A stretch of DNA of 64,000 nt from Porphyromonas cangingivalis (GTDB lineage: Bacteria; Bacteroidota; Bacteroidia; Bacteroidales; Paludibacteraceae). The notes under the pieces are model-generated. The model saw only the letters and a program-made list of their open reading frames with translations, did not search any database and had not been told where the DNA came from. This document shows, piece by piece, positions 16,001 through 61,642 of this stretch. The number at the start of each line of letters is the position of its first letter. Within the stretch, counting starts at the first letter, position 1. The position numbers and the translations under genes are program-made. The stretch is from assembly GCA_945902955.1 (NCBI GenBank), contig CAMDNO010000001.1:38724-102723 (forward strand), in the 5' to 3' direction.

Positions 16001-17077
16001 TTCATCGCCAGCCCAAATCTCATTCGAAAATTCCACCCATACGCGTAAATTTGGTTTTAAGCCCACGGCACCATCACCATCAGGGTCTTTTCCTGCAATT
16101 AGCATAGCTAAACTATCCACAAATCCATTGGTGGCAGCATGTGGTATGTTTATCCACAAATCTTTATCTAAGATATTACAAAGTTCAATCATACGCTGGT
16201 AAGCAACCGGAGTGGGAGGACCATTTTCGCAATCAATATCTCCCTCTGAATAGCTTCCGTTGGTATCGCCATCTCCATTGCCATCGTAGCAACTACCCGG
16301 CACAGGGCGGCTCTCTAAATTTCCTTTTTGAAAAGCATAATTACTTCCACGTAAATCTTTCCAATACATTATATTTGAATGGTTTGTTTCTGCCCAATCC
16401 ATAAAACGAAGCACTTTCTCGCCGGGGTGGCTGTGTGCTTCAAGAAATAAGGGATTCCAAACGGGTTCAGGTTGACCGGGAGCGGGCTCAAGACTTTTGT
16501 TAATAGGGTCAGAGGGGTCGGGCATCCAACAACGGATATTTCGCACAGGATTTGTAGCATAATTCGTTCCGGCGGTAATTCTGATTTCTAAACTGTTTGG
16601 ACTGTAATTCGTAGTATTATAATCAAAATCATATACTTTTCGCTTCAAAGCATCAGAACCCGACACCAAAATTACGCTCCCCTGAAAATCCACAACAGCA
16701 TCGCCCTCCCAGGTAAGCACCCAACGACCACGTAAAAATGAAGTAGCATTCCAATCAGGAATATCTTCCGTTTTATCTGTATAAGCCATTTGTCCGGGAG
16801 CAAGAATAGGATAACCGGCAGCATCCAGTTCCGAACGCCCAAATTTCGGGGAATCCCATGAGTCGGCTTTACTCCAGCCTGCACTCCACTCCAAAAGGTT
16901 TGCAAATGGCCAAGCTTCTCTTGATGGACTCATACCAACCTGTAACTCAGGCAATGTGGACTTGTCGAATGCAAAACCTGAATTCGACAGCAATAGAAAC
17001 GAAAAAACAAATACAGATTGAAGAGATTTTAGAAAAGAAATTATACTCAAGCGTGGGTTTAAACAACTCATATTCAT
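10022..17077 (-). CDS. Giant T9SS-secreted mosaic enzyme: clan GH-A-like domain with inserted LamG, FN3 repeats and beta-helix
   Basis: A 2351-residue protein. A signal peptide ends near residue 37 (LLLSNSGFAFD). Residues 40-900 resemble a TIM-barrel hydrolase, with DLWINIPHAATNGF, VWVEFSNEIW (putative acid/base E353) and LVAYEGG (putative nucleophile E514). A LamG/concanavalin-like module follows E514 directly (residues about 520-790), after which barrel sequence resumes (MMAQLYKTQMALVKSSGVYM). Next come a cadherin-like segment, a carbohydrate-binding-like region, three fibronectin type III repeats (each with NLAASGVTESEVTLNWTASS-like strands), a right-handed beta-helix from about residue 1600, and a T9SS sorting domain (VSVYPNPTSNFLNV to the end). 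The 36780-39116 product is a paralog of the catalytic part. The substrate is unknown; I find no exact CAZy family. Confidence 0.8.
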   Translation of the reverse strand: MNMSCLNPRLSIISFLKSLQSVFVFSFLLLSNSGFAFDKSTLPELQVGMSPSREAWPFANLLEWSAGWSKADSWDSPKFGRSELDAAGYPILAPGQMAYTDKTEDIPDWNATSFLRGRWVLTWEGDAVVDFQGSVILVSGSDALKRKVYDFDYNTTNYSPNSLEIRITAGTNYATNPVRNIRCWMPDPSDPINKSLEPAPGQPEPVWNPLFLEAHSHPGEKVLRFMDWAETNHSNIMYWKDLRGSNYAFQKGNLESRPVPGSCYDGNGDGDTNGSYSEGDIDCENGPPTPVAYQRMIELCNILDKDLWINIPHAATNGFVDSLAMLIAGKDPDGDGAVGLKPNLRVWVEFSNEIWAGDEAFRQGSYAAQQAALEGITYNRWNARRFCQMWSIFQNHLPLNRMVRVAAVWTGDGGGYTLPFLTEINNYGPTLTPATTADVIAITTYFGNKIQEYVYDNIDYNRASEADFDKTFRMWEQLILTSASNTTGRDVTGAIPAKHMQYSKQFGWPLVAYEGGTGLSLIDRKISYDAKLVDSSVESVGGEDFNFNIQTSTLNGRIAGAIALTVDSGGVYSKANAEIVGSTKVNDGAWHHVAVVIPTGATNLNQALLYVDGVLETPSFVSGFPLNTQAYANVKIGNRAEHSANLTGQLDDVLMYSRELNAAEIASVYAGSAVTGNLEGRWQFNDTGDDISGNGRTATLRNGANYSTTKYEGTKSLNASGDNYAEVYDYKGVLGSNARTITAWVKSSSTTNQTIVGYGHPGPVRSELAGLGAVATGEGDINNNPYIEFMLTLPQKPMMAQLYKTQMALVKSSGVYMHSQFGDYGKFTKYGSWGYAEYLNQPSTQTPKRNFIQQWALDETQIRELDAPQNNSPEFFTNPELAMAIVGEPYKAVIEFGGGDGTVNCELISSNNLPNGVQMRIEANQIVIEGTPAEIGFGSFYLMFRLLDADKDPAYQKYTFRCVARSSNPQVIIDFEAVAPANYNNLLEVGDYKFTANLGLNVYNTTTSTTWPSSVLSLRTWGQTITMERKDGANFDLTSFDVTPSADNYGNYLVVTATTDGGATLTKKITMPYLINANKSLIKVALDWVSLKKVVFKGMLDYIKTDGRAVTIDNVLLNASLPNIQQDYDGILKIDANQYLNSFPGGALVKGIDGPKWKSVNIAGASNGTAMQAFENLNETVGKDSIMKASALEYKVNFTKTGIHYVWIKGHANGSANDDAIHLGIDNVIEPNCTDITLNASNSFVWTNTTEAGTLASFKISSIGLHTINLWMKDDGVVIDSIFIKQNQYNFNDQQAPTTPTNLAASGVTESEVTLNWTASSDNIGVVDYDVFKNGAYHATTTANSLKVNGLSPLSAYSFTVLARDLAGNISAQSSPATVNTLSDNVAPSIPSGFTLIKNTGDSLILKWNASTDNFEVTAYEVYKNNIYYTTTTDTIVVISGLTGNTAYSFSVRAGDISNNWSELSAAFAVTTKDNVAPNSPTGVTASNVAETTFTLNWTAATDDVGVTEYQIKLNGANYATTSATTINVTGRFLGVTYSVLVIAKDAAGNSSVPSTPINVTTEVPPTSGVEMLVGGIGADYPTLKAAFDAVNAGQLTGEVKLAIHGNTTETATAVLYASGSVTLGKTSNYTSVKIYPNGANRLISSNMTAVTINLIGAHNVTFDGSIDGIGTDKNLTIENLYMSDDVVYAYGTIQFNKDATYNTIKNCVLKGSFAKTAVTGILTFRASDNTGNGISYNTITNNDFTSSATGPASFCVASRGKDATIVNKENVISNNNFYNATNTLRGSTVVNVENYNKDWTISGNSFYETQTLTSNANGMVATYIRVGGTSSSGINVTGNYIGGSAPLCGGSPLTKDAVSANGTGLVGIEIITNPSGVISNNTIQNIEWSNPTNTSISMIFNGALTQPLLISNNTIGGSEAKKISYSTSVTNTPIFRGINLNSGDGADTITVTGNTISHLYANNTSGTNSLAIDGIYNDDAINLKITSNTISDLYASGTSTGNTQLVSGIRLNKAQFLQLSGNTISNLSSAKTGTGDAVTGIDVKGDITNAKSVFNNFIHSLEATAGTTINGIKINSGFGTFYNNIISLSPASASVVNGIYETGAASHNHNLYHNTIYVGGSSTTGNSYALWVNANTNTRDIRNNIFINQRTNTSGSAKNYGVYFNATGGTFTLNKNNYYINSGSYIGRYGSDKLLFSEWQNTTASEGAGMSVNPMFSISSPTVPADYKPSVVALNAGADNLSVDKDFEGTVRTSVPTIGAFEFNSMTTNLIKTENTVSVYPNPTSNFLNVNAGFLLESVSIVSLTGQKLLEQKVASNNVSLNVSSLALGIYFVSVKSITGQSMQRMFIRK

Positions 17078-34761: not shown

Positions 34762-36732
34762 TTATCTATTTTTTGAGAGTACGATTACAAAACCACCATT
34801 TGACTGCATATTGACTGGAAGTACTTCTCCCGAATTATATTTTCCGGTTGTATTTACAAAACTGCGCCCATCGGCACCATCGCTTATCTTGTTTAAAGTA
34901 TATTTTCCTTTAATAAATGGTAATTTCAGTTCAGTGTTTTTCGATTTATCTTCGCCATTTATGCCTGCAATAAACCATTTATCACCTTTGCGCGAAGCAA
35001 CAATAACATCTTTTCCGGGATAACCCGATACATAATGCGATTCGTCGAAAGTAACAGGTACAGATTTCAGATAATCAAGCACAAATGCCGGTAAAGTCCG
35101 AATATAATCGGCATTTTCCGCTAAATGGAGAATTCCGGTTTGAAAAACAAGTGTCAAAGCCAATTCGTGTGAATAGGTAGTGGAGTGCGGATATTTGAAC
35201 CCTTTCAACACCAACGGCGTGTAATCCATTGGGCCAATCACGTTGCGTGAAAAGGGCAAAATCGTATTTTGCGAAGGAGCATAAGCGGTATAAGTAGAGT
35301 CGAACAAATAGCACTCAGAACCTCGCACCGACTCCATAGACATTAAATTGGGATAAGTACGCGACCATCCACGCGGAATAGTACATCCATGAAAATTAAC
35401 CAAAATGCCAAAATCGGCAGCATCATTTAGCAAATCAATATATTGCTGTATCATATCTTGTTTGTCGCTGTGCCAAAAATCCACTTTTATGCCTTTTACA
35501 CCCCATTTTTGCAGTTTGGTAAATTCTGCTCGACGCACATTGCGGTCGGTCATCAGGTCTCGGGGACCTTCGGTTACAGGGTTATTCGGACCACCTGAAT
35601 TGTACCACACCAATATACCTACCCCTTTTGTGTCAGCATACTTCACCAATTGTTCGAGATTTCCATTTTTCATCGTTTCCCAATTTGCATCCACCAACGA
35701 ATATTCCCAATTCATTTCTGCCGACAAATCCACAAAGTTTTTCAGGGCGTTGTAATCACGTGGACTATCAACTTCTGAAATCCAGCTCCACGACGAGCGA
35801 CCCGTTTTTACCCACGAAAAATCTTTATCAACTGTTTTATTGCTGAGGTTATTAACAAGTTGCGATTCGTAAATTGATTCCAACGAATTGCCTATGGTTA
35901 TAAATCGCCAGGGCATATCCCAAGGCAGCGTCGAAACAGGGTGCACCGCTCCTACACCTTCGCCATCGCGCACTTCGGGGAAACGCACTTTATACAAACC
36001 GTTTACGGCCTTTTGCTCCAAACGAATGCCGGCAAAGTTTTTAGTCAGGTTGGCTTCGGAGATAAGCAGCCAATTGTTGTTTGCCTGAAATAATGCAGGG
36101 AAAGCCCAACCTTCAGCATTGGGCGAAGCAGCACCTACCGGCACATCCGTTTTGTAATACAACTCATAGCTGGGTGTCCACATGGAGGATTTATCGTAAG
36201 GCTGCATCCAACACTTCCCGTTCAGTGGCACTTTAAAACCTGTAAGTTCATTGATTACAGTATAGTTTTTATCCGATTTTTCGGGAAAAACGTATTTGAA
36301 AGCTACGCCATCGTTGTAAGCCCGAAAAACAAGCTGAAGCAACGAACCATTCTCATTTTTAAAAGTCAATTGTTTTTCGTTTGCAAAATTGTGGATTTTC
36401 AGTTGACGACCGATTTTCATTTCGTACTTTTCGCTGATTTTCAACACTTTCGATTGGTTTACTAATGACAAGCCTTCGGCAAACGATTGGTCGGTACGAA
36501 CGATACCAAGAGGCGAATTCTCAAGCACCTGTATTGTTTTTCCATTTTCGTAACGAACAACCGAATACTCCAAAACTTGTTTATTGTTCGCATTGTTGCT
36601 CAACGATAAATCAATTCTGATTTTTTTGTCGGGCGAAAGCAACTGCATAAGGGATGTTGCACTCCGGACAGTCTGAATTGAAAAGAAAAATGTGAAAAGC
36701 AGAATTGAGTTTGTTAATTTCGTGATTTTCAT
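34762..36732 (-). CDS. GH97 glycosidase, probably retaining (alpha-galactosidase type)
   Basis: 656 residues, signal peptide to about residue 25. An N-terminal beta-super-sandwich (LSPDKKIRIDLSLSNN) precedes the barrel (WSWISEVDSPRDYNALKNFV, YSLVDANWE) and a C-terminal sandwich (FIAGINGEDKSKNTELKLPF). In GIKVDFWHSDKQ the aspartate D418 occupies the place of the nucleophile of retaining GH97 alpha-galactosidases; inverting SusB-type enzymes use glutamates instead. I therefore predict a retaining enzyme acting on alpha-galactosides or a similar alpha-linked sugar. It is followed by the S86 sulfatase (3-nt gap) and preceded by the clan GH-A-like T9SS gene. Confidence 0.93.
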   Translation of the reverse strand: MKITKLTNSILLFTFFFSIQTVRSATSLMQLLSPDKKIRIDLSLSNNANNKQVLEYSVVRYENGKTIQVLENSPLGIVRTDQSFAEGLSLVNQSKVLKISEKYEMKIGRQLKIHNFANEKQLTFKNENGSLLQLVFRAYNDGVAFKYVFPEKSDKNYTVINELTGFKVPLNGKCWMQPYDKSSMWTPSYELYYKTDVPVGAASPNAEGWAFPALFQANNNWLLISEANLTKNFAGIRLEQKAVNGLYKVRFPEVRDGEGVGAVHPVSTLPWDMPWRFITIGNSLESIYESQLVNNLSNKTVDKDFSWVKTGRSSWSWISEVDSPRDYNALKNFVDLSAEMNWEYSLVDANWETMKNGNLEQLVKYADTKGVGILVWYNSGGPNNPVTEGPRDLMTDRNVRRAEFTKLQKWGVKGIKVDFWHSDKQDMIQQYIDLLNDAADFGILVNFHGCTIPRGWSRTYPNLMSMESVRGSECYLFDSTYTAYAPSQNTILPFSRNVIGPMDYTPLVLKGFKYPHSTTYSHELALTLVFQTGILHLAENADYIRTLPAFVLDYLKSVPVTFDESHYVSGYPGKDVIVASRKGDKWFIAGINGEDKSKNTELKLPFIKGKYTLNKISDGADGRSFVNTTGKYNSGEVLPVNMQSNGGFVIVLSKNR

Positions 36733-36756: not shown

Positions 36757-36791
36757 GAAAACAGAACAATTTGGTGATATTATAGAACAAC
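36757..36791. repeat. 35-bp perfect direct repeat, copy 1
   Basis: Identical over 35 nt to 39191-39225 in the same orientation. This copy covers the last codons and stop of the 36780-39116 gene and the gap before GH97. It begins GAAAACAGAACAATTTGG. The two copies bracket the whole gene. Confidence 0.95.
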
Positions 36792-39116
36792 TTTTCGAGT
36801 GATGGACTCTTCCCCTTTATTTATTTTCACTACATATACACCAGATTGTATACTAGAAGTAGGAAATTCCGTGAAATAGCTTTGTGCATTCTTTTGATAA
36901 ACTATTTTTCCGTACATATCATATACTGATATAGTGAAATTATCAAAGTTAGTTCTAATTTGAGCAGATTGATTTTCTTTGTTATTATAAAAACTAAGGT
37001 CATTAGTACTTCTATTTTCCAAGCTAGTAGAGATACTATTAATAGCAAAGTTGACTTTTTTCACTTGTACCCCACCCGATTTGACTGCTATACGGAATGA
37101 ATACAATTTATTAGGAACACAGTCAAAATTATAATAGGCAGTGGCAGAAGAACCTTTTGCCAAACTTAATTGTGGCACTACTGGAACACCATTCACTTCT
37201 AATAGCATCACAGCGGCTGATGTACAGTTGTATTCAACATTCGCTTTGTAACTTCCCGTAGCTGCTACTCTAAAATTATAGGAAACTGAATAATAAGTAT
37301 CATTTCCGGTAAGAGTTTGAGGTACTGTATTAGAATATGTTGTAGTAGTCCATTTGTTATTATTATTATTATCATTTGCAGATCCTGCTGTAGAAAAAGG
37401 TATTAGCCTTCCTAAAGTTACTTCACTATGTGCAGGCATTAATGACCAATTCTTAATAGCTTTGTATTGTGGCTGAGTGTAGTCATTTATGGTTTTTGTA
37501 ATTGCCCAGTCGCATTCTAAAGGTTTATTTGTGGAAAGTGATAAGAAATTCATTAGTTCTAATTCAACTTCACTTAACTTTTCTAAATGCTGTGTAGTAC
37601 TCAACTCATGCCGAGCATCCCAGTGGGTAGCTTGCAATAATACTTGATTGTTAGGATTATAATGCATATCGCCTTCATAATTAAGGTATTTAATACCATA
37701 CGAGGATGTAACAGCTGCATCATTTCTGACTAAATTATAATAAGTTGTAGGATCAAAAGTATCTGAAGTCCACATAGTTGCTTCGGTAATGGTAAGCAAA
37801 TTTTCTGCGGACCAATAGCCAGTACCACCGCCACCATAAATATAATAGCTTACTGGGTGAGGAGCACCTGTATAAGGTGACCTGGTATCTAACTTGTTAA
37901 ATATTCTATCTATAAAAGAAATGGTACGAGCTGAATAATACAAGTAACCTTGTTGCCAACAAAGTACAGGACGTATACGGGTCATCATTTCGGCATCGCC
38001 AAAAACTGTGCGAGCCATAACACTAAACTCTACTGTGCGTTGAGCTTTATATCTGTAACCTACTGTCACTTGGCTCTGTACAGAAGTCATATCAGGATTG
38101 TCAAACAAACAGTAGGGAGACAAAGCGCCTTGCGCTTTGGCGTAGTTTGTTTGTGGAGCGTAAGGTGCTGCAGTGTTCCATATTTCATTGGAGTATTCCA
38201 AATACAATTTTAATGTTGGTTTCAATGGAGCAACTACTGGATTGGCTTGTATGCTGGAGTATGGATTACCATTACCATCACTTCCATACTTGAATAGTTT
38301 CAGTAGATTCATTATATAAGCATCAGTTGCCATGTGTGGAATATTAATCCACAAATCTTTGTTGGCAGCATTGGCCAGCTGCAATACTCCTTCCCATGGA
38401 GTTTTCCCTTTTTTGGTTAGTGATCCAGACGGATTTTGTGTAGCATAACTCCATGGACGTACTGTGGCAGCATCCCAATCAGTATCTGTTTGTCCGCCAT
38501 TGGTCAATGTAGTACCCAAGGTACGAAGAGTAGTAAATGGAGCTATGGCGGCCAAAAATTGTGGATTCCAAACCACAGTGGTATCATACGCAGTAGCACT
38601 TCCTGGCGCATCAGGACGCATCAATTTGATATTAGTGACACCTGTGCCTACAGCACTGGTGCTTAGCTTCTTAGTGCTCGTGAAATTTATATTAATAAAA
38701 TCAACTGTACCAAGTACCGCTTGTACATTTGCAGTAGTCAAATTTTTTGCAGCGTCCCATGTCTTACCAGTAATGGTAACTCCAGTTCCAGAAAGGGTAG
38801 CCTGTCCGTTAAAATACAATTTATAAGTACCGTGAGTCTCTCCTGTTTTCAAACCAGAAAATACAGCACATTTAAAGTCTTCAGTTGGCCATCCATTTGC
38901 ATCCTTGTTGGCATCGTCCGCATTTAAATCTACTGTTGTAGTCTTGTAAAATGTCCTAGAAGATTTAATAGCATCTGCAAAAAACACATCAGGATTGTAA
39001 TCGCTAAACGAGCCTAAATTCATACCGACTTCAAGTTTTCTGGCAGAAATAGATACGCTAATACTCAACAAATAAGGAACAAAAAACGCTAAAAATAAAA
39101 AACATGGTTTTTTCAT
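36780..39116 (-). CDS. T9SS-secreted clan GH-A-like enzyme with C-terminal carbohydrate-binding-like domain
   Basis: 778 residues; signal peptide to about residue 25 (SISVSISARK). It is homologous to the front part of the 2351-residue protein: both start with a VGMxxG... segment and carry DLWINIPHMATDAY, an EYSNEIW strand (putative acid/base E311) and a YEG strand (putative nucleophile E481). Residues about 565-680 look like a beta-sandwich binding module (YYSVSYNFRVAATGSYKANV). The last 70 residues are a T9SS sorting domain (ISVYDMYGKIVYQKN, ending TRKVVL). No exact CAZy family is recognised. It is bracketed by 35-bp direct repeats, suggesting acquisition or loss by recombination. Confidence 0.75.
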   Translation of the reverse strand: MKKPCFLFLAFFVPYLLSISVSISARKLEVGMNLGSFSDYNPDVFFADAIKSSRTFYKTTTVDLNADDANKDANGWPTEDFKCAVFSGLKTGETHGTYKLYFNGQATLSGTGVTITGKTWDAAKNLTTANVQAVLGTVDFININFTSTKKLSTSAVGTGVTNIKLMRPDAPGSATAYDTTVVWNPQFLAAIAPFTTLRTLGTTLTNGGQTDTDWDAATVRPWSYATQNPSGSLTKKGKTPWEGVLQLANAANKDLWINIPHMATDAYIMNLLKLFKYGSDGNGNPYSSIQANPVVAPLKPTLKLYLEYSNEIWNTAAPYAPQTNYAKAQGALSPYCLFDNPDMTSVQSQVTVGYRYKAQRTVEFSVMARTVFGDAEMMTRIRPVLCWQQGYLYYSARTISFIDRIFNKLDTRSPYTGAPHPVSYYIYGGGGTGYWSAENLLTITEATMWTSDTFDPTTYYNLVRNDAAVTSSYGIKYLNYEGDMHYNPNNQVLLQATHWDARHELSTTQHLEKLSEVELELMNFLSLSTNKPLECDWAITKTINDYTQPQYKAIKNWSLMPAHSEVTLGRLIPFSTAGSANDNNNNNKWTTTTYSNTVPQTLTGNDTYYSVSYNFRVAATGSYKANVEYNCTSAAVMLLEVNGVPVVPQLSLAKGSSATAYYNFDCVPNKLYSFRIAVKSGGVQVKKVNFAINSISTSLENRSTNDLSFYNNKENQSAQIRTNFDNFTISVYDMYGKIVYQKNAQSYFTEFPTSSIQSGVYVVKINKGEESITRKVVL

Positions 39117-39190
39117 AAAAAATCAGTTTTTAAAGATAGTCTAAGAACTTTGGCTTTGCAAACAAAAACTAAGTCTATCCCAATAACACT

Positions 39191-39225
39191 GAAAACAGAA
39201 CAATTTGGTGATATTATAGAACAAC
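39191..39225. repeat. 35-bp perfect direct repeat, copy 2
   Basis: Second copy of the 35-nt repeat at 36757-36791, in the gap upstream of the 36780-39116 gene. The unit distance is 2434 bp. Nothing else was recognised in 39117-39308. Confidence 0.95.
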
Positions 39226-39308
39226 AAAAATACACAAAAGATATAGTTTTCTTTGATACTTAACTGACTAATTGTAGTACATATCCGACACAACAAGTAA
39301 GTCTGAAT

Positions 39309-42002
39309 TTATTTTACAATCTTATGTACTGTCTCAAAACCATCAGCATCAAGCATTTTGAGTAAATACAAGCCCGAAGGGTAGCTGTACATCGAATAAG
39401 CAAAACGCAATGCGTTAGGCTGTATACAATCCCATATTTTTCCGTTGACAGATACGATAGTTATCTGTTTTATAAGGCTTTGGCTTTCGACATTCAAGGT
39501 TTGAATTACCGGATTTGGATAAATAATGTAAGGCCATTTATTCGCATTCGTAACCGCATCGATGCTGGTAGTCTCGTTGTCGAACCACAAATTCGGCTCA
39601 TAAGGCAAACGCATTAAAACTCGGGACGAATAAGGGGCTAAATGCATCGTGTCCGAATACAATTTGTTATCTAAATCGTACCAATCCCTGCCATCCAAAT
39701 TTACAACTGTTTTCGCATCGGAATAGTTATAGTGAATTTGAGTCAGTTCGTTTGCATTAGGCTTTCGTGCAGTTACTTTTCGGAATGTAATGTTATCTAC
39801 ATTCAGTGTTGCTGGAGCTGTTGCATTTATTTCGAACGCAAGGGTTGCAATATTGATGTTTTGAGGCATTTTTATCACAAACCAGACTTCCCTTTTAAAG
39901 TTTGAAACCGGAAAAGCATAACTTAATAGCGTCCTTTTGGCAGGAATGTCGCGAAGTTGTAAATTAATGGATTGTCGAACGACATTGTTTAGTAAATCAT
40001 TTTCGTTTAGTGCATAACTGAATTTTACTTCGTAGAGCGAATCTTTGACTAACGGAAACGAAGCGTTATAAATGCATTGAATACGGCTGTTGTTGGAATA
40101 AATTTGCAAACACCGGCTGTTGAAAAGCGGGTTATTTTGAATTGTAATTCCATCCTGTGTACCGGCAAGGGTATTCCATGTTAAATTATTTTGTTCTAAA
40201 TCGGCGTTTTCTATTCTGTTTTTAGAGATGCCACGAATAATATATTCAGGTATACGGAACAAATTTTCGTTTGGAGTTTTTTCTGCCCACGAATAGACGT
40301 TAGCCCATTCGTTGAAACTAATGGAGGAGGTGCCATTAACCATAAAATCGCTGAACTGATTGGCATATATATTATTCGTAAAACTTCCGTAATCGTAACC
40401 CGTATCAAATTTTATTGTCGGCTGTGAGGCCGAACCCGCAAAAAAGATATTTTTGCTGAAATTATTTTGTTGAATAGTAGATGTACCTCTGCCCTTTAAG
40501 GTTACAGAAGCTGTTCCGTTATTGTAAAGCGTATTATCCGTAACGATACCCTTAAAAAGATTGTCGTGATAAATCCCATTTCCACCCGAATTAGCAACCA
40601 CATTGTTCTGAATAATATTGTCGTGAAACTGCGATAAAAATTCCGGCCAAATACCATGACCCAAATTAGCCCAGCCTGTCGACGACTCCAGATTTCCCCG
40701 CGTATTGGTGATTATATTGTAACGAATAGTGCTGTACGAACAATTGGTATAAATGGCGCCTCCATCGTTGAGCGTGTACATAGCTGCATTTATGCGGTTG
40801 TATTCTGCAAAATTTTTGTCCGACCCCAACAAAATAGCCGCATAACCGATAGTATCAAATTCGTTGTGCTGTACCCGCACATTATTTCCATTGCTGATAA
40901 TAATGCCACAAGCATGCCACGAGCCATTACCTCCGTAGCCCGGAATGCTTCCGATACGCAGGAATGTATTTTTTTCGATATACGAATTTGGTTGCACAAC
41001 CGAGCGGTTTTGATTCCAGGTAATGGCCGTATTCAGCAAGTCGACAAAACTATTATTTCTGATAATTAAAGCATTAGCTTCCCAGCCAACTTTAATGGCA
41101 ACGCCACCCGAATTGTTGCCAATGTTTTCGAATGTGCAATTTTCAATCAAACTACGCCCGTTAGCAGAAAGTCCAACATCCGTTTGATGTCGGAACGCAA
41201 CATTACGAATAGTAGATGAGCTAATATTCAGTCCATTTGTGCGAGCAGCACCTTCAATGAGCAGATTGTTTGTAGTTGCCGTACCGGTAATAACATAAGC
41301 TTTACCCGAATAATAAACCCATTCGCCAATGGAATCCAACTCTTCAAATTTATTGTCGATGTAGAATTTCCAACCCTCTTCGAAATTGGCATTCGAAACT
41401 GGTGTTACCGTTATTTTATCGGGAGCAGTGGATTGTGAAATTGTGGGCGAATCGAACCACCAACTCCAACGCCGCCATCGCATGGTTGCATTTTTCCAAT
41501 AATCGTTGGGTACCGGACTGTGTGCTGCCAGTTGAGAGCAGTTTAAGGTAAGTCCGCCCGTTGTTAAATCAGTGGAAGTATCAATATTAATCCAACCCTT
41601 GTTTGGCCAGCGTGCAAAAAGCATCAATTTGTTATTCACAAAAAGATTTGATGGCTTCGTAATATTGCTCGAAACAAAAATATTGTTTTTGTAAGTACCC
41701 CAACCCGTAATAATATTGCTCCCACTTATCACCGGTATGGGCAAATTGCTATCGCCAAAAGCATCGATGACAATCCCCGTTTTAGAACTCAAATCAACCG
41801 TTTCGCGAAACACATCGCCCCTGCGTAGCAACATAATATCGCCACTCACTATGTTTTGAGCCGCTTTGGTAATAGTGGTGTAAGCATTTTCGGCGCTTGT
41901 GCCATTACTATTGTTACCTGATAATGATACGTAAACCGTTTTTGAAAATATAAATGAGGAGTTTAACAATAGAAATGCTATCAGAGTCAGAAATTTATAC
42001 AT
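39309..42002 (-). CDS. T9SS-secreted right-handed beta-helix protein
   Basis: 897 residues; signal peptide to about residue 20. The mature start TVYVSLSGNNSNGTSAENAY with ITKAAQNIVSGDIMLLRRGD is typical of pectate-lyase-like beta-helix enzymes. Residues 250-560 hold PbH1-type turns (NVRVQHNEFDTIGYAAILLG, YSTIRYNIITNTRG, NIIQNNVVANSGGNGIYHDN). A beta-sandwich (residues about 600-740) and a T9SS sorting domain (IIYPNPVIQTLNVESQSLIK) follow. It could be a polysaccharide lyase, an alpha-galactosidase-like beta-helix hydrolase or a binding protein; no catalytic set can be fixed by eye. The next gene (isomerase) lies upstream with an 8-nt gap. Confidence 0.82.
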   Translation of the reverse strand: MYKFLTLIAFLLLNSSFIFSKTVYVSLSGNNSNGTSAENAYTTITKAAQNIVSGDIMLLRRGDVFRETVDLSSKTGIVIDAFGDSNLPIPVISGSNIITGWGTYKNNIFVSSNITKPSNLFVNNKLMLFARWPNKGWINIDTSTDLTTGGLTLNCSQLAAHSPVPNDYWKNATMRWRRWSWWFDSPTISQSTAPDKITVTPVSNANFEEGWKFYIDNKFEELDSIGEWVYYSGKAYVITGTATTNNLLIEGAARTNGLNISSSTIRNVAFRHQTDVGLSANGRSLIENCTFENIGNNSGGVAIKVGWEANALIIRNNSFVDLLNTAITWNQNRSVVQPNSYIEKNTFLRIGSIPGYGGNGSWHACGIIISNGNNVRVQHNEFDTIGYAAILLGSDKNFAEYNRINAAMYTLNDGGAIYTNCSYSTIRYNIITNTRGNLESSTGWANLGHGIWPEFLSQFHDNIIQNNVVANSGGNGIYHDNLFKGIVTDNTLYNNGTASVTLKGRGTSTIQQNNFSKNIFFAGSASQPTIKFDTGYDYGSFTNNIYANQFSDFMVNGTSSISFNEWANVYSWAEKTPNENLFRIPEYIIRGISKNRIENADLEQNNLTWNTLAGTQDGITIQNNPLFNSRCLQIYSNNSRIQCIYNASFPLVKDSLYEVKFSYALNENDLLNNVVRQSINLQLRDIPAKRTLLSYAFPVSNFKREVWFVIKMPQNINIATLAFEINATAPATLNVDNITFRKVTARKPNANELTQIHYNYSDAKTVVNLDGRDWYDLDNKLYSDTMHLAPYSSRVLMRLPYEPNLWFDNETTSIDAVTNANKWPYIIYPNPVIQTLNVESQSLIKQITIVSVNGKIWDCIQPNALRFAYSMYSYPSGLYLLKMLDADGFETVHKIVK

Positions 42003-53270: not shown

Positions 53271-55595
53271 ATGAAAACAAAACTTACATCTTTCAAGCTG
53301 GTAGTGTTCGGTGCCGTTTTACTTTGTTTGGTATTTCCACAACAAATCTTGGCACAAAGAGCCACTCAAAATCAAAATGATTTAGTCGTAGGGCAGACTT
53401 ATGGCCCGGGTACCATTTACCAACGATTACTTAATGTAGTAGTAACCACCACTGAGGCTAATGTTGTAATTAACGAATTACAATTTACGCTTACCAACCC
53501 CGAGCAAATTGATCGAGTATCGTTGTTTAGATCTGATAACAGCATTCCTGATTTTACAAATACGACTATACTTTTTGGCACACCGATTATTGACCCCACT
53601 GGAACAATAACCTTTACAGGAACATACACACAAGTGGCTACCTCTAATAAGCTTTCGTTCTATATGTTGGTAGACATAAAACCAACTGCTACGGTCGGTA
53701 CAACTATCGATGCGACTTGTTCCTCGGTTAACACCTCTGTAGGTACTTATATTGCAGGTACTGGTAATGGTTTTTTAAATTCGGGAATTGAGATGAGCCG
53801 CAATGCTGTTATTGCAGACAATCTTACGGGGACGAAAACTGTTAAGGAAACTGGTGGAGATTTTACCAACCTGAATGCAGCCATTATTGCTTTAAACAAC
53901 TTGGGCGTAGGCGAAGGTGGTGTTACTTTCGAACTTGCAAATGGTGAACCCTTTGCGCACACTTCCATTTCATTTACCCAAAACCTTATCCGCCAGACAG
54001 GGACTGCTACTAAACCCATTGTGATTAAACGCAGTGCTACAAATACGCATTTAGCGAAACCTATTATTAATTGTCCTGCAACTGGTTCGTCATCCGATTG
54101 TATTATTGGTGCCGTAGGGGTGGATTATCTTACTATCGATGGACTTGACCTAAGAGCCACATTAACAACAAGTAGTACACGTTTCGAACGCCCGGTTTAT
54201 TTCTTAGGCAGTAACAAAAAGGGCTGCAGCTACAACGAAATAAAAAACTGTGTGATTGATGCAGGTGAGACCTTCAACAACAATCGTATCATTGCTATTG
54301 GATTTGTAAGTAAAGCTACTCAGGCAGAAGGAGCCAATAACTTCAATAAAATTCATCACAATACCATTTCGAATGTGGATGCAGCAGTCGATTTTAACTA
54401 TGGTGTTCCAACACCACTACCCTTCCACGACGATGGCAACGAAATCTACAACAACATGATTACAGGACAATTTGCAACTGAACTGGGTGGCTTACGAGTT
54501 GCCTATTGTAAAAACACTAAAATATACAATAATACATTAGACGGTGCAGGAGTTACTACCACTTATGATGGCGACCGTCATGGTATTATCACCAGCTCAA
54601 CTACAAATTTAGGATATGTACATATTTATGGCAATGTGATAAAAAACTTGGCCATAAACAAAGCCCGTAATCTCAGAGGAATCCATGCAATAGCTCCTAC
54701 TGTGCTGATATACAACAACGTGGTATCAAATCTCACCAATAGTTTTGCACTCACTGCCGCAAAAGATATAACGGGTATTAGTATGACTACCGATGGTGCA
54801 TCAACCACAATACTACCCGATTATTATCTATATCATAACTCAGTATATTTAAACCAAACAGTTACAAATAGTTTTCAAATTACTGCTGCAGTGGCAAATG
54901 CAGGTGGATTGGGACTTACAGGTATGACCCTCATAAACAATGTGTTTGTGAATGCATCGGTTACAGGTACACCAGAAAAGAATTTTGCACTTTACATACC
55001 TAACAGAACTTTATCGTATGTAAAAGCCGAAACAAATAATAACTTATACTACGGCACCGATGTATCGGCCACCTATATTAAGCTTACTTCACCAGCCACT
55101 CCTTATGCCACTCTTGCTGCATACAAAGCTGCCAGTATAGCCGTGTCGGGAATGGCTAACAGGGAGTTAAATTCCGTATCAGCCGACCCATTGTTTGTAG
55201 ATGCAGCGGGTAACGAATTACACATCACCGATGCCCTTTCGCCTACAAGCAATACAGGTACAACTGTAGCAGCGGTTACTGTCGATATAAACGGTAATCC
55301 TCGTCATGCTACAAAACCTGACTTAGGCGCTTACGAAGATGCACACGCTCCTGTCTCTACTTTGATTGCAGACTTATTGAACAAACAACACATTATTTAC
55401 AGTGTAAACGGCGCTATCGTTGCTAAAATCAGCGAAGCAGCCACTGTATCGGTAATCGATGCAAAAGGAAGTGTGTTGTATAAAAACACAGTAAATGCAC
55501 AAACACTTTCAATTCCTGTTTCGCAAAAAGGCTTGTATATTATCCGCATTCAAAATAAAAATGAAAATACAACTAATAAAGTGTTGGTGTTGTAG
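53271..55595 (+). CDS. Beta-helix surface protein paralog 1 (T9SS)
   Basis: 774 residues; signal peptide to residue 29 (VFPQQILAQ). Residues 30-165 resemble the N-terminal domain found on BNR-repeat sialidase-like proteins of Bacteroidota (LQFTLTNPEQIDRVSLFRSD, KLSFYMLVDIKPTATVG). From residue about 180 (GTKTVKETGGDFTNLNAAII) a right-handed beta-helix runs to about 640, with turns such as YLTIDGLDLRA, CSYNEIKNCVIDAGE, KIHHNTISNVDAAVDF and VLIYNNVVSNLTNS. The C-terminus (SVIDAKGSVLYKNTVNAQTL, ending NKVLVL) is a T9SS sorting domain. No catalytic residues are evident; adhesin, glycan binding or lyase are all possible. Paralogs start at 56068 and 61772. Confidence 0.82.
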   Translation: MKTKLTSFKLVVFGAVLLCLVFPQQILAQRATQNQNDLVVGQTYGPGTIYQRLLNVVVTTTEANVVINELQFTLTNPEQIDRVSLFRSDNSIPDFTNTTILFGTPIIDPTGTITFTGTYTQVATSNKLSFYMLVDIKPTATVGTTIDATCSSVNTSVGTYIAGTGNGFLNSGIEMSRNAVIADNLTGTKTVKETGGDFTNLNAAIIALNNLGVGEGGVTFELANGEPFAHTSISFTQNLIRQTGTATKPIVIKRSATNTHLAKPIINCPATGSSSDCIIGAVGVDYLTIDGLDLRATLTTSSTRFERPVYFLGSNKKGCSYNEIKNCVIDAGETFNNNRIIAIGFVSKATQAEGANNFNKIHHNTISNVDAAVDFNYGVPTPLPFHDDGNEIYNNMITGQFATELGGLRVAYCKNTKIYNNTLDGAGVTTTYDGDRHGIITSSTTNLGYVHIYGNVIKNLAINKARNLRGIHAIAPTVLIYNNVVSNLTNSFALTAAKDITGISMTTDGASTTILPDYYLYHNSVYLNQTVTNSFQITAAVANAGGLGLTGMTLINNVFVNASVTGTPEKNFALYIPNRTLSYVKAETNNNLYYGTDVSATYIKLTSPATPYATLAAYKAASIAVSGMANRELNSVSADPLFVDAAGNELHITDALSPTSNTGTTVAAVTVDINGNPRHATKPDLGAYEDAHAPVSTLIADLLNKQHIIYSVNGAIVAKISEAATVSVIDAKGSVLYKNTVNAQTLSIPVSQKGLYIIRIQNKNENTTNKVLVL

Positions 55596-55622
55596 TTAAC
55601 AAGTATGATTATTTTTTATTTG

Positions 55623-55671
55623 ACAAGTTCCGGTTTTTGTGTAAAAGCAAGAATTGGAACTTGTTTTTTTT
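55623..55671 (+). terminator. Rho-independent-type terminator of paralog 1
   Basis: ACAAGTTCC pairs with GGAACTTGT across a 24-nt loop, followed by a run of seven or more T. It lies 28 nt after the stop codon. An almost identical sequence follows paralog 2. Confidence 0.75.
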
Positions 55672-55699
55672 GAAGAAGAACTGCTGAACAGAAGCCATT

Positions 55700-56001
55700 C
55701 GCACCCGTCGCACCAAACACTTCGCATTACGACAACATTCGGCGACGGGTAATGTACTCCAACGATTGCCTTATCATTCCGAAGCGAAGCGAGGGATATA
55801 AGCAACGGTGCAAGCCGCCCCAAAACCACTCCGGTCATATTTCCCATTACATCTATCCTGTTTTTTACAATAATTTTTGTAAGAAAAGTATCAGTATTTG
55901 CATGTTTTTTATCGGTTTTGCCGGTTTTAATGCTGTATTTTTGCAAAGTTACTATTTATCCATTTTGGGATGTCGTATTTTGTACATTTACATTATATAA
56001 A
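55700..56001 (+). repeat. About 300-bp duplicated leader/promoter repeat, copy 1
   Basis: Closely matches 61397-61702 along its whole length and, like it, sits directly upstream of a beta-helix paralog. It begins with an inverted repeat ACCCGTCGC (55703-55711) / GCGACGGGT (55742-55750), then CATTCCGAAGCGAAGCGAGG, then an AT-rich part with a TATTTTTG promoter box. This accounts for most of the 55596-56067 spacer. The 116-residue minus ORF listed here is not credible. Confidence 0.9.
55936..55943 (+). promoter_or_regulatory. Conserved -7 promoter box candidate (paralog 2)
   Basis: TATTTTTG fits TAnnTTTG and is conserved at 61635-61642 in the duplicated leader. It lies 132 nt before the ATG. 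A TTTG (55917-55920) lies 15 nt upstream, closer than the usual spacing. Confidence 0.5.
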
Positions 56002-56067
56002 ATACAGTCCGGCTGACAATTTCCGTACACCTTAAATTTTAAAATAATTAATACAAATATTGATCTT

Positions 56068-58365
56068 ATGAAAACAATCATTCACTCTTTTTTCAAAGCA
56101 GCCGCATTGACAATTATGCTGCTTTTTGCTTTTGCACCTTATGCAATGGCAGCAGTTACAGTTACTCAAAACCAAGCTTCGGTTACCGGCACAGCATTAG
56201 GTAAGGGAACAACTAATCAACGCATTTTGCAGATAAATATCACTACTGCCGCTAGCGATGCTGCTCATACTGTTTCAAATGTAAAATTAACCTTAACGGG
56301 CTATGCTCAAATGGCTAAGGTGAGTGTTTACTCAGTGGGTTCCAATGGAAATTTTCCGGACATCGGTAATAATAGCTATTTTTTTGCTAGTGTTGATAAT
56401 CCCGCTACTGACATAGTTAGCTTGGATGGAACTTACAATATAGCTGCTGGCAGTAGCACCAAATACCTTGTTGCGCTTATCGATTTAAAGCCAGAGGCTA
56501 TAGTAACCACTCCTATCAATGTAGTTTGTTCGGAGCTTACTACTACTGCAAGTGGGTCGCCAATTACAAGCATCACAATGTCGAGTGCTAAAACTATTAC
56601 CGTAGCCGAAAACTTAACCGGCATAAAAACCGTAAAAAATTCGGATGGAGACTATACAACCCTAACCGCAGCCGTTGCTGCCATTAATACACTTGGCGTG
56701 GGCACAGGTGGACTAACCATAGAAGTTGCAGATAATCAAACCATTACACAAACAACATCTACTAATATTATCCGCCAAACAGGTACAGCCACCAACCCTA
56801 TTGTGATTAAACGCAGTGGAACTGGTACTATTAAGCCAATAATTGTGGCAACAAACAACGGAAATAGCGCTTTTGATACCAATATTGGTGGAATGGGTGT
56901 TGATTATATAACTATCGATGGTTTGGATTTTAGGTCAACAGATGGAACAGGCAAAACAGAAACACCAATTAATTTTTATGGTTATTATAACAGGGGTTGC
57001 AACAATATCGAAATAAAAAACTGCGATATAAACTGTGGTACACCTGTAGGTTCGGATTTTGGAATAAAAATTGCGTCCAATGCCAGAGGTACAGTTACAG
57101 GAGTTGGTGCTGGTATATATGGCAACACTTCCAACTCAAATATTAAAATACATCACAATACCATCACAAATGCTTATGCAGCTATTGATTTCAACTATAA
57201 TTCTACTTTAGTTGCACAAGATCACGATATCGAAATTTACAACAACACCATTACTGCTGGCTCTTTTGCCACTTTCAAAGAAGGTATAAAATTGAAGTAT
57301 TGCACCGATGTAGATATCTATAACAATAGCGTTGATGGGTCAGGTGTAACTTCTACATCGTCTATGAACGGCATAGCTACTGACGGAACTACTTGTGCAG
57401 GCACCATTAACTGTTACAACAATGTGGTAAAAAACATGGCCATGAATGCAAACTCTAATAATTCCGGCATTTCACTTGTGGCAAATACTGTAAATATTTA
57501 CAACAACGTGGTTTCGAACCTAACCAATAGTCATGCTACATCATCCAAAGTTATTATTGGTATTAATATGGGTACTGACAATGCTTTAATGCCCGTATAT
57601 AATTTATATCACAACTCGGTATATTTAAATCAATCTGTCTCGAATACAAGTCAGTTAACCGCTGCCGTGGGCAATACCAGCAATAACGGTATTACAAGCA
57701 TTACCATGGCAAACAATATTTTTGTAAATAATTCGGTTACCGGTACTCCGGCAAATAATTATGTGGTTTTTATACAATACAAGGATTTAACAAAACTAAG
57801 TGCTGCAAGTAATAATAATTTGTATTATGCAAACGACCCTGCAAGCACACGATTTAAATTCAGCAATACTACCTATGCTACTTTTGACTTATACAAAGCT
57901 GCAAGTATAGCCGTATCGGGTATGGAAAACAGGGAGTTAAATTCCGTATCGGCCGACCCATTATTTGTAGATGCAGCGGGTAACGATTTAACAATTACCA
58001 ATGCGCTTTCGCTAACAAGCAATACCGGCACTGCATTAGCTGCTGTTACTACTGATATAAACGGTAATCCTCGTCATGCTACAAAACCAGACTTAGGCGC
58101 TTACGAAGATGCACACGCTCCTGTCTCTACTTTGATTGCAGACTTATTGAACAAACAACACATTATTTACAGTGCAAACGGCGCTATCGTTGCAAAAATC
58201 AACGAATCGGCCACTGTATCGGTAATCGATGCCAAAGGTAGTGTGTTGTATAAAAACACGGTAAATGCACAAACGCTCTCAATTCCGGTTTCGCAAAAAG
58301 GCTTGTATATTATCCGCATTCAAAATAAAAATGAAAATACAACTAATAAAGTGTTGGTGTTGTAG
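56068..58365 (+). CDS. Beta-helix surface protein paralog 2 (T9SS)
   Basis: 765 residues; signal peptide MKTIIHSFFKAAALTIMLLF to about residue 28. Same layout as paralog 1: N-terminal beta domain (VTQNQASVTGTALGKGTTNQ, KYLVALIDLKPEA), beta-helix from GIKTVKNSDGDYTTLTAAVA with YITIDGLDFRSTDG, IEIKNCDINCG and VNIYNNVVSNLTNSHATSSK, and a sorting domain almost identical to that of paralog 1. The N-terminal half is clearly diverged from paralog 1, while the last 200 residues and the 3' flank are nearly the same. The middle region near residues 547-627 is nearly identical to paralog 3. It is therefore a mosaic. Function unknown; presented at the cell surface by T9SS. Confidence 0.82.
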   Translation: MKTIIHSFFKAAALTIMLLFAFAPYAMAAVTVTQNQASVTGTALGKGTTNQRILQINITTAASDAAHTVSNVKLTLTGYAQMAKVSVYSVGSNGNFPDIGNNSYFFASVDNPATDIVSLDGTYNIAAGSSTKYLVALIDLKPEAIVTTPINVVCSELTTTASGSPITSITMSSAKTITVAENLTGIKTVKNSDGDYTTLTAAVAAINTLGVGTGGLTIEVADNQTITQTTSTNIIRQTGTATNPIVIKRSGTGTIKPIIVATNNGNSAFDTNIGGMGVDYITIDGLDFRSTDGTGKTETPINFYGYYNRGCNNIEIKNCDINCGTPVGSDFGIKIASNARGTVTGVGAGIYGNTSNSNIKIHHNTITNAYAAIDFNYNSTLVAQDHDIEIYNNTITAGSFATFKEGIKLKYCTDVDIYNNSVDGSGVTSTSSMNGIATDGTTCAGTINCYNNVVKNMAMNANSNNSGISLVANTVNIYNNVVSNLTNSHATSSKVIIGINMGTDNALMPVYNLYHNSVYLNQSVSNTSQLTAAVGNTSNNGITSITMANNIFVNNSVTGTPANNYVVFIQYKDLTKLSAASNNNLYYANDPASTRFKFSNTTYATFDLYKAASIAVSGMENRELNSVSADPLFVDAAGNDLTITNALSLTSNTGTALAAVTTDINGNPRHATKPDLGAYEDAHAPVSTLIADLLNKQHIIYSANGAIVAKINESATVSVIDAKGSVLYKNTVNAQTLSIPVSQKGLYIIRIQNKNENTTNKVLVL

Positions 58366-58392
58366 TTAACAAGTATGATTATTTTTTATTTG

Positions 58393-58439
58393 ACAAGTTC
58401 CGGTTTTTGTGTAGAAGCAAGAATTGGAACTTGTTTTTT
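58393..58439 (+). terminator. Rho-independent-type terminator of paralog 2
   Basis: ACAAGTTCC and GGAACTTGT with a trailing T-run, the same as after paralog 1 except for single-base changes. It separates paralog 2 from dctA. Confidence 0.75.
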
Positions 58440-58486
58440 ACCAACAAAAACAGTAGTTCACAAATAAAATACAGTAAAATATATTT

Positions 58487-59734
58487 ATGAGAAAAATAAT
58501 AAAAAGTCTTTATTTTCAAGTAATAACTGCCATTGTAATTGGAGTTGTACTTGGCGTTTTATACCCTGAATTTGCTCAAAAGCTAAAACCTCTTGGCGAT
58601 GGATTTATCCGATTAATAAAAATGATGATTGCTCCCATTATTTTCAGCACCATTGTTACAGGCATTTCGGGTATGAGCGATACAAAAAAAGTGGGTCGTG
58701 TGGGGCTTAAAGCCATTATATATTTCGAAGTGCTTTCTACCTTAGCATTGATTATTGGATTGGTGGTTGTCAATGTTTTAAAACCCGGTGTTGGCATGGA
58801 TATCGATCCCAATTCGCTCGATGCTACAGCCACTCAAAATTACATTGCCCGTTCGCACGAAAGCCACACTGCGGTGGATTTCCTTTTGAATATCATCCCC
58901 GAAAATGTGGTGGGCGCCTTTTCGGAAGGAAATTTATTACAGGTATTGCTTTTTTCGGTACTGTTGGGGTTTGCCCTGTCCAAAATTGGCACCAAAGCCG
59001 AACCTTTTATTAAAGTCCTTAAATCCTTCGAATCGGCTTTGTTCAAAGTCATACAAATGATAATGTATTTAGCGCCACTCGGAGCTTTCGGTGCTATGGG
59101 TTATACCGTAGGTAAATATGGATTCGGATCGCTGGCATCGCTGGGCGAACTCATGATTTCGTTTTATATTACCTGCATTCTCTTTGTGGTAATTATATTA
59201 GGCATTGCCATGAAAATTTTTGGCTTTAATTTATTTAAACTCATAAAATACATACGCGAAGAAATACTCATTGTGTTGGGAACGTCGTCGTCGGAATCGG
59301 CGCTACCCTCGCTAATGCAGAAACTCGAAAACGCTGGTTGTTCACGCTCGGTTGTAGGTTTGGTAGTACCCACCGGTTATTCGTTTAACTTAGATGGTAC
59401 TTCCATCTATCTTACTATGGCTGTGGTGTTTTTGGCGCAAGCCACCAATGTACCACTCGACTTTGGTCAACAACTTACCATACTGATGGTATTGCTTATA
59501 GCTTCAAAAGGAGCTGCGGGAGTTACCGGAAGCGGATTTGTAACCCTTGCTGCGGTATTACCTACGGTGGGTGCTATTCCCGTTACAGCCATTGCACTTA
59601 TTTTGGGTATCGACCGCTTTATGAGCGAAGCACGCGCTATCACTAACCTTATTGGCAATGCAGTAGCTACGGTGCTTGTTGCCAAATGGGAAAACGAAAT
59701 TGACAACCATGCTTTCGACAAAGCTATGGAATGA
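58487..59734 (+). CDS. dctA: C4-dicarboxylate:cation symporter DctA (DAACS family)
   Basis: A 415-residue inner-membrane carrier with eight membrane segments and two re-entrant loops. It carries the family signatures [20 protein letters not shown] (serine-rich hairpin), [40 protein letters not shown] and [20 protein letters not shown]. These closely follow DctA of other bacteria, which imports succinate, fumarate and malate with cations; glutamate carriers differ in the last motif. It follows the terminator of paralog 2, so it probably has its own promoter. It has no evident link to glycan breakdown. Confidence 0.93.
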
Positions 59735-59755
59735 TATTTTATCCTTCGCTTGCAA

Positions 59756-59770
59756 TTCGGAATGACAAGG
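59756..59770 (-). repeat. Inverted repeat bordering the AbiE pair, left copy
   Basis: TTCGGAATGACAAGG is the exact reverse complement of 61467-61481. The flanking sequence (CTTCGCTTGCAA) also partly matches, and GTCGCACCAAAC (about 59793) recalls the start of the 55700 repeat. Confidence 0.75.
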
Positions 59771-59815
59771 ACACCCTTTGGTTTGCAATACAGTCGCACC
59801 AAACCATTTCTCCAT

Positions 59816-60649
59816 TTATTTAAACTGAATCATTTCCACTAATTGTAAAAAATATTCGACCGACCAAATTTCCATTTCACTTTGGTTACGAATAAAGGGG
59901 CGAACATCATTTTTTACCACATCAATATTTGTTTTTGCTATTTTATCCTTTATCAACTGTTTAAACGTTTCTTTTGTGAGCTCCATGTTTTGCTGGTAGC
60001 CCGATTGATAGCAACGTTCGCGAAAATGCTCGAAATTAAGTGGCGTATTATTGCGCACATACCACTCGAAATCGTACCAGTCGCGCCCTTTCACTCTTGT
60101 TTTCCAGTTTCGAAACAGAAGTGCGTGCAATTTTCCGGCATACAAATCAGGTAAAGTATAACATCGGGTTGTAAACGAGAAAGGTAAAAGTTGTAATTTA
60201 TACTCGGTATTAAACCCAATCGGTGGATTTATATCTACTTCAATTTTAATTTTAATCTGCTTATCTGTTCTGAATTGCAAATTGTAAATAGCTGTATCAT
60301 CTTTCAAAAAAGCCGATTCAATATTGGTTTTATGTAATTTTTCCTTTTTTACAAATACAATTTCCCTGCCCAACGATTTAAATTCGGCGCTCACAGGTTC
60401 AAAGTAGTCTTCGAGCTTGAAATGTGCATTCGGTTGCAGAAGTGAGAAATCCATGTCCTCCGAAAATCGCTGCAGGTCATAAAAAATGCGCAGACAGGTG
60501 CCACCATAGAAAGCTGCTTTTTTGAAAAAACCTCCTCTGTTTAAACCGGCTAATGCTATTTGTTGCATTACTTCGTGCAAAGCATTTGTATAGTCGTCGT
60601 TGGTGCGAATATCATATCGACTCAACATTTGATCAAAGATATTTATCAT
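59816..60649 (-). CDS. abiEii: AbiEii/AbiGii-family nucleotidyltransferase toxin
   Basis: 277 residues. The nucleotidyltransferase core is FYGGTCLRIFYDLQRFSEDMDFSLL (quoted in part: FSEDMDFSLL), with GG and the D-x-D pair. KIKIEVDINPP supplies a further acidic residue, and YAGKLHALLFRNWKTRVKGR followed by DWYDF is the conserved lysine/aspartate block. AbiEii toxins transfer nucleotides, blocking growth or phage development, and are neutralised by AbiEi, a type IV toxin-antitoxin system. The start overlaps the AbiEi stop by 4 nt (ATGA). The pair is the only minus-strand unit in the last 11 kb, consistent with insertion. Confidence 0.9.
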   Translation of the reverse strand: MINIFDQMLSRYDIRTNDDYTNALHEVMQQIALAGLNRGGFFKKAAFYGGTCLRIFYDLQRFSEDMDFSLLQPNAHFKLEDYFEPVSAEFKSLGREIVFVKKEKLHKTNIESAFLKDDTAIYNLQFRTDKQIKIKIEVDINPPIGFNTEYKLQLLPFSFTTRCYTLPDLYAGKLHALLFRNWKTRVKGRDWYDFEWYVRNNTPLNFEHFRERCYQSGYQQNMELTKETFKQLIKDKIAKTNIDVVKNDVRPFIRNQSEMEIWSVEYFLQLVEMIQFK

Positions 60650-61272
60650 TGTTCCAATAGTTTTAAAAGGAATGAAAGTTCCATTTTTTTTAGTCCTGCT
60701 TCCATACAGTTTCTGATAATTTCGGAATTGTACGTTTTAATAACCGACAAATCAATTCTTAAATCATCTTCTAAAAAAGCTTTCATCGCTTTTACAGATT
60801 GAATTCGAAAGTTACGCGTTGTCAATATCATATCTGCTATTGCCTTTTCGGGTGTAGCTATTAAAAAAGCATATTCGTTATTCACTATTTCCTGACGAAC
60901 ACCAATTGCATAATACGCTTCAGGAATGGTGAGGTATTCAAAATTACCAAGTACTGTAGCAAATTGCTTCGCGCGTTTGGTAGTTACCGAACGAACCGAA
61001 TATACTTTTTCGGGAATAAGCCCATAAAAAGATAAAGCACTTTCGAGCGATACGTACGATGGACTGCATAAATGGTTAGCCACCAATTCGCGCGATAGTT
61101 TCTGTTGGCTTAGTTCCGACGAAACAACGTAAAGTCCTTTCTTCAAACGAATAAGACTTCCACTTTTCTCCAACAGTGAAATTTTGTCTTTGGGTGAATG
61201 ATAATTGCTTAACATGGCAACCAACACATCGAACTCAATGGGCACGATACCGAAACGTAATAACTCCTTCAT
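60646..61272 (-). CDS. abiEi: AbiEi-family antitoxin/transcriptional regulator
   Basis: The start is set at MKELLRFGIVP (61272) rather than the longer ORF start, since the extra 40 residues are hydrophobic and out of character for the family; 208 residues. An N-terminal winged-helix region (VAMLSNYHSPKDKISLLEKS, LIRLKKGLYVV) is followed by the AbiEi body (YVSLESALSFYGLIPEKVYS, IATPEKAIADMI). Such proteins repress their own promoter and counter the AbiEii toxin. The four-base overlap with abiEii fits translational coupling. The promoter would lie in the 61273-61400 gap, next to the duplicated repeat. Confidence 0.88.
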   Translation of the reverse strand: MKELLRFGIVPIEFDVLVAMLSNYHSPKDKISLLEKSGSLIRLKKGLYVVSSELSQQKLSRELVANHLCSPSYVSLESALSFYGLIPEKVYSVRSVTTKRAKQFATVLGNFEYLTIPEAYYAIGVRQEIVNNEYAFLIATPEKAIADMILTTRNFRIQSVKAMKAFLEDDLRIDLSVIKTYNSEIIRNCMEAGLKKMELSFLLKLLEQ

Positions 61273-61466
61273 TTTGTACTGATATAAATATGCAAGTGGT
61301 TTAATTGCTGCAAATATAGTGTGTTTTGCATAAATAATCGACTTTATTCCGATTATTTGTGCAATATTTACTAATATCTGCAATATTAACACCTACCGCA
61401 CCCGTCGCACCTCACACTTCACATTACCGGCAACCTTCGGCGACGGGTATTGTACTCCAACGATTG

Positions 61467-61481
61467 CCTTGTCATTCCGAA
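61467..61481 (+). repeat. Inverted repeat bordering the AbiE pair, right copy
   Basis: CCTTGTCATTCCGAA, exact reverse complement of 59756-59770; part of the larger leader repeat. The two copies enclose abiEi and abiEii. Confidence 0.75.
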
Positions 61482-61634
61482 GCGAAGCGAGGAATATAAG
61501 CAACGGTACAAGCCGCCCCAAAACCACTCCCGTCATATTTTCCACTACATCTATCCTGTTTTTTTACAATAATTTTTGAAAGAAAAGTATCAGTATTTGC
61601 ATGTTTTTTATCGGTTTTGCCGGTTTTAATGCTG

Positions 61635-61642
61635 TATTTTTG
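61635..61642 (+). promoter_or_regulatory. Conserved -7 promoter box candidate (paralog 3)
   Basis: TATTTTTG at the same place in the repeat as 55936-55943, 137 nt before the ATG of paralog 3. Confidence 0.5.

Follow-up and report, generated by a model that had tools for sequence, protein, structure and literature searches.

Genomic context of the repeat-bracketed gene

The window, that is, the entire 64,000-nucleotide stretch of Porphyromonas cangingivalis DNA analysed here, carries on its minus strand a run of genes (1253-52998), among them genes for sulfatases, GH97, GH127-like, rhamnosidase-like and beta-helix proteins. Embedded in this run is a gene for a protein of 778 amino acids (aa) that is bracketed by a pair of 35-bp direct repeats (Table 1). 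Read along the minus strand, the beta-helix gene, with its stop at 39309, is followed by 83 nt, the upstream repeat copy, 74 nt of leader (the ATG lies about 74-75 nt from the repeat), the 778-aa gene together with the second repeat copy, 24 nt, and the ATG of the GH97 gene. Another protein of the same cluster, of 2351 aa (10022-17077), contains a segment related to the 778-aa protein. No recombinase or transposase domain was found among the window proteins scanned, the neighbours included.

In a separate part of the window (53271-63630), related T9SS genes are arranged in tandem (53271-55595, 56068-58365, and a third from approximately 61771). They have identical blocks, up to 126 bp long, in common but are diverged between these blocks, a pattern that suggests recent gene conversion. 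Located between the second and the third of these genes are an AbiEii gene (59816-60649) and its partner (60646-61392).

Table 1. Features of the repeat-bracketed gene and its immediate surroundings
Feature	Position	Strand	Basis
GH97 glycoside hydrolase, downstream neighbour	34762..36732	-	Pfam
Direct repeat, downstream copy, 35 bp	36757..36791	-	exact sequence
778-aa protein with a signal-peptide-like N-terminus and a T9SS type A C-terminal sorting domain	36780..39116	-	PF18962, TIGR04183; alignment with relatives
2434-bp unit: gene, leader and one repeat	36792..39225	-	coordinates; GC3 and tetranucleotide contrast
Leader, 74 nt, from the upstream repeat to the start codon	39117..39190	-	sequence
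Direct repeat, upstream copy, intergenic, 35 bp	39191..39225	-	exact sequence
TATTTTTG, fits the Bacteroidota -7 consensus TAnnTTTG; abuts the upstream repeat	39225..39232	-	pattern search
Right-handed beta-helix protein with a T9SS sorting domain, upstream neighbour	39309..42002	-	Pfam

A unique, sharply bounded repeat

The two copies are identical at all 35 positions, have the same orientation and are spaced by 2434 bp, start to start. They lie exactly where an earlier note on this DNA had placed them, one across the stop codon of the 778-aa gene and the other upstream of its start. The homology stops at both edges of the repeat, the flanks showing at most 40% identity on the same diagonal. 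A scan of the window that tolerated up to three mismatches found no further copy (none is expected, judging from 100 shuffles), and the 26-nt core of the repeat occurs at two sites only in the source assembly, a draft of 4.52 Mb (292 contigs, 87% complete) in which strain variation is not visible. The 22-nt core has no match in the genome_contigs and viral_contigs collections, from which the genome of the window itself is possibly excluded. For comparison, no pair longer than 18 bp arose by chance at a spacing of 0.7-12 kb in order-3 Markov sequence modeled on 2.29 Mb of the genome. Because the 35-bp pair is unique in the genome, exceeds the chance length and lacks homology in the flanks, it is a real, sharply bounded repeat. 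The possibility, raised in the earlier note, that it is a common dispersed element is ruled out by the presence of only two copies in the genome, as well as by the absence of the 22-nt core from the genome and viral collections. No stable fold, Rfam match or terminator was found at the repeat, and no terminal inverted repeats were found at the bracketed unit.

The product of the bracketed gene and the identity of the repeat

The C-terminal sorting domain of the 778-aa protein scores above the curated cut-offs of both PF18962 (35.1 bits, cut-off 27) and TIGR04183 (39.6 bits, cut-off 23). The PF18962 match spans residues 722-777, which correspond to profile positions 17-74 of 75, so that the terminal V-V-L residues fall inside it. 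The downstream repeat copy comprises the last 12 nt of the coding sequence (GTT GTT CTA TAA, that is, V-V-L-stop) and 23 nt past the stop codon; in the upstream copy, the same V-V-L-stop is present without any preceding sorting-domain sequence. Given that V-V-L-stop belongs to the sorting-domain match and directly follows Lys775, a residue invariant in the alignment with the relatives, the downstream copy most likely represents the native terminus of the gene, with the upstream copy as an orphan tail. An automatic tally of sorting-domain endings in the genome returned 11 genes only and was set aside.

The protein also contains an uncharacterised, catalytic-looking region that includes KLYLEYSNEIWN and NYEGDMHY. 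The motifs around E307-x-S-N-E311-x-W and Y480-E-G are common to the relatives in two other genomes (two proteins in G023 and one in G043), and we take these regions to resemble those that hold the acid/base and the nucleophile in glycosidases of clan GH-A. The catalytic-looking region is thus suggestive of a clan GH-A-like glycosidase, and the product is probably a carbohydrate-active enzyme. No match to a catalytic family was obtained in Pfam or NCBIfam, and the PDB profile matches of the family alignment fall on the fn3, CBM-like and sorting domains only rather than on a solved enzyme. The predicted structure, for which a single paralogue from the window served as the only relative, had a pLDDT of 36.7 and was too poor for use. 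Thus, of the earlier description of the product as a secreted enzyme, secretion is borne out by the T9SS sorting domain, whereas the enzymatic part follows from the motifs, with no catalytic family match behind it.

Composition and phyletic distribution

The 778-aa gene differs from its neighbours in base composition: its GC3 is 0.272, compared with 0.412 and 0.399 for the two flanking genes, the largest such departure among 127 co-oriented triples of long genes. In tetranucleotide distance, the bracketed segment ranks at the 96th percentile; for fixed tiles that straddle the segment, the corresponding values are 53-56%, near the median. Taken alone, the gene is within the genome range (86th percentile for the codon-usage chi-square per codon, 14th for GC3), so codon usage by itself does not mark it as foreign; what stands out is the contrast with the neighbours.

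The gene family is rare and patchily distributed. At E<=1e-30, it is represented in 3 of the 358 genomes of the taxonomic family, the source genome included; in a sample of 395 genomes from the class, no genome other than the source contains it at E<=1e-40, and there is no match in genome_contigs. The relatives in G023 and G043 show about 30% identity to the 778-aa protein. The two G023 genes are 2.3 kb apart (locus L086), and just downstream of one of them, at 8967-9152 of that locus (minus strand), there is a T9SS sorting-domain tail that is decayed and interrupted by a stop codon, seemingly what remains of a gene that was lost or replaced.

No syntenic region, whether occupied by the gene or empty, was found in the genomes searched. 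The best relatives of the GH97 protein (54-62%; G018, G030 and G046) have other neighbours, and both the relatives of the 778-aa gene and the nearest relatives of the beta-helix protein are found in other contexts, so that no empty site can be read from these genomes.

The bracketed unit and its possible loss

According to the coordinates, the two neighbours would remain intact and be separated by 142 nt of spacer if the gene and one repeat were deleted. The claim that a crossover at the repeats would take out exactly this gene, along with one repeat, and leave the neighbours untouched is therefore right by inspection. The minimum length for RecA/RecBC recombination has been cited as 23-27 bp (PMC12074656). 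Since the 35-bp repeat exceeds this minimum, loss of the whole gene by recombination between the repeats, at a low frequency, is plausible. In the gene-free state, the candidate TAnnTTTG promoter next to the upstream repeat, for which no -33 box was seen, might conceivably drive the GH97 gene.

Similar modules elsewhere in the genome

Isolated repeat pairs of at least 25 bp at a spacing of 0.7-12 kb number only 11 in the half of the genome that was sampled. Several isolated pairs, some of them shorter than 25 bp, bracket cargo modules; others are dispersed repeats. A hipBA-like toxin-antitoxin pair (HipA_C, HTH_3) is flanked by perfect 64-bp direct repeats (G000, C16:1300-1363 and 3259-3322; L105) that occur nowhere else in the sample. 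Two DUF3800 genes, adjoining a type IIG-like restriction-modification gene, lie between 35-bp repeats (C9:3365 and 5885; L091). A 20-bp repeat (C13:35598 and 38145; L100 15598 and 18145) encloses an AbiLi/AbiLii (AAA/RloB) pair and seems to duplicate the 3' end of the gene that precedes this pair, a principle shared with the 35-bp pair described here. Finally, a 6.8-kb element (C2:15811-22628; L150 and L151) carries tyrosine-recombinase-like, excisionase-like and primase/helicase-like genes and has the 21-bp repeats AGTACACCTTTAGTACACCCC, likely att sites, at its ends.

The hipBA, DUF3800 and AbiLi/AbiLii modules share with the 778-aa unit isolated perfect repeats, one or two cargo genes and the lack of a recombinase of their own; the AbiLi/AbiLii repeat, too, apparently coincides with a gene's 3' end. 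In contrast to the toxin-antitoxin or defence-type cargo of these three modules, that of the 778-aa unit is a polysaccharide-degradation gene.

Evolutionary scenarios

From these observations, we infer, with moderate confidence, that the 778-aa gene was inserted as a single-gene module into an existing cluster, from which it could later be lost via the repeats. Under this scenario, a module consisting of the leader, the T9SS-secreted gene and its own 3' end would have entered the co-oriented sulfatase/glycosidase cluster between the beta-helix and GH97 genes. A one-copy circle, with the tail joined to the leader, could have crossed over with a resident tail, yielding the tail-leader-gene-tail arrangement; this route requires an assumed tail-like target already resident at the site. 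The same arrangement could have resulted from a tandem duplication in which one of the copies was afterwards mostly deleted. Once formed, the repeats would allow the whole gene to be lost on rare occasions, through homologous recombination or slippage during replication, with one repeat staying behind between intact neighbours. As both routes leave the same product, insertion is favoured only tentatively, because of the compositional contrast with the neighbours. The proposal of the earlier note that the gene was gained as a unit accordingly draws on this contrast, on the rarity of the gene family and on the similar modules in the genome, but no empty-site relative to go with it was found in the genomes searched.

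A tenable, if rather unlikely, alternative, also raised in the earlier note, is that the gene once existed as a head-to-tail tandem copy, one copy having been deleted but for its last 35 bp, in which case the gene need not be newly acquired. Given that the repeat holds the gene's own 3' end, such tandem duplication with partial deletion is, like insertion of a circle, favoured over simple target-site duplication. The two relatives located 2.3 kb apart in G023 are compatible with a tandem origin, and the decayed sorting-domain tail at the same locus indicates that remnants of this kind do occur. However, two events are needed, the body of the deleted copy has left no trace, and the deletion would have to end 12 nt short of the end of the coding sequence, in a remnant that is still identical at 35 of 35 positions; nor does a tandem origin alone explain the compositional contrast.

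It appears improbable that the gene never moved as a unit and that 35 bp of its 3' end were simply copied, by template switching, into the upstream intergenic DNA. Such templated copying would take a single event, would account for the identity of the repeat with the gene's end and would fit the otherwise unremarkable intergenic location of the upstream copy. Its landing between the start of the gene and the neighbour, so as to bracket exactly one whole gene, would nevertheless be a coincidence, and both the compositional contrast and the similar module-bracketing repeats elsewhere in the genome would be left unexplained.

We consider it very unlikely that the 35 bp represent a target-site duplication or an att-like site used by a recombinase acting in trans. 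Although the unit has a perfect repeat on either side, and an integrase element bracketed by 21-bp repeats exists elsewhere in the genome, the target would have had to supply, by luck, an in-frame V-V-L-stop that fits the sorting-domain profile. Furthermore, the unit has no terminal inverted repeats, the repeat has no stable fold and is found at no other place, and neither the unit nor the neighbours scanned encode a recombinase.

Least probable of all is a functional duplicate, that is, a regulator site or RNA element ahead of both the 778-aa gene and the GH97 gene: both copies do lie upstream of a start codon and contain an internal direct repeat at a two-helical-turn spacing (TTGTTCT-N14-TTGTTCT, 21-bp period), but the identity covers all 35 nt, spacer included, the half-site pattern is not clearly enriched (19 genome matches versus 13 for the reversed control) and is found at no other gene of the window, and neither a stable fold nor an Rfam match is seen.

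Returning to the insertion scenario, one could go much further and place the unit in a family of small cargo modules of this lineage that lack recombinases and travel as circles, each crossing over at a copy of its gene's 3' end. T9SS enzyme genes would then be swapped reversibly, one at a time, between polysaccharide-degradation clusters; we regard this extension as highly doubtful.

Precedents and implications

Removal of a single gene at direct repeats is not without precedent. In Salmonella Typhimurium DT8/DT30, excision at perfect 113-bp repeats removes wzy in a unit of 2558 bp, and the resulting circle can be detected (PMC12074656). The wzy locus and the 778-aa unit have in common a single gene, perfect direct repeats, a similar unit size (2558 versus 2434 bp) and the lack of a known dedicated recombinase, and in both, excision would leave one repeat and intact neighbours (PMC12074656). 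The differences are that the wzy repeats, of 113 bp, are in intergenic DNA, whereas those of the 778-aa unit, of 35 bp, are partly inside the gene, and that for wzy, gene-free strains and circles have been observed and phage selection explains the polymorphism (PMC12074656), whereas no polymorphism was seen for the 778-aa unit, which is known from one draft assembly. Strains of Haloquadratum walsbyi differ by segments bounded by direct repeats of 4-20 bp (PMC3119063). As in the gene-free state proposed here, these indels involve short direct repeats, one copy of which is kept in the other strain; however, the Haloquadratum repeats, of 4-20 bp, were found by comparison of two strains, whereas the 35-bp pair comes from a single draft assembly (PMC3119063).

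The 778-aa unit thus probably represents a known kind in an ordinary, well-formed version: a module of one gene that joined a polysaccharide-degradation cluster and could potentially be lost from it by recombination. The mechanism would be ordinary recombination, already documented elsewhere. If confirmed, the finding would mean that single genes can be gained and lost in a polysaccharide-degradation cluster via short repeats rather than mobile elements, and the repeat pair would provide a simple PCR- or read-based marker for strain variation in enzyme content.
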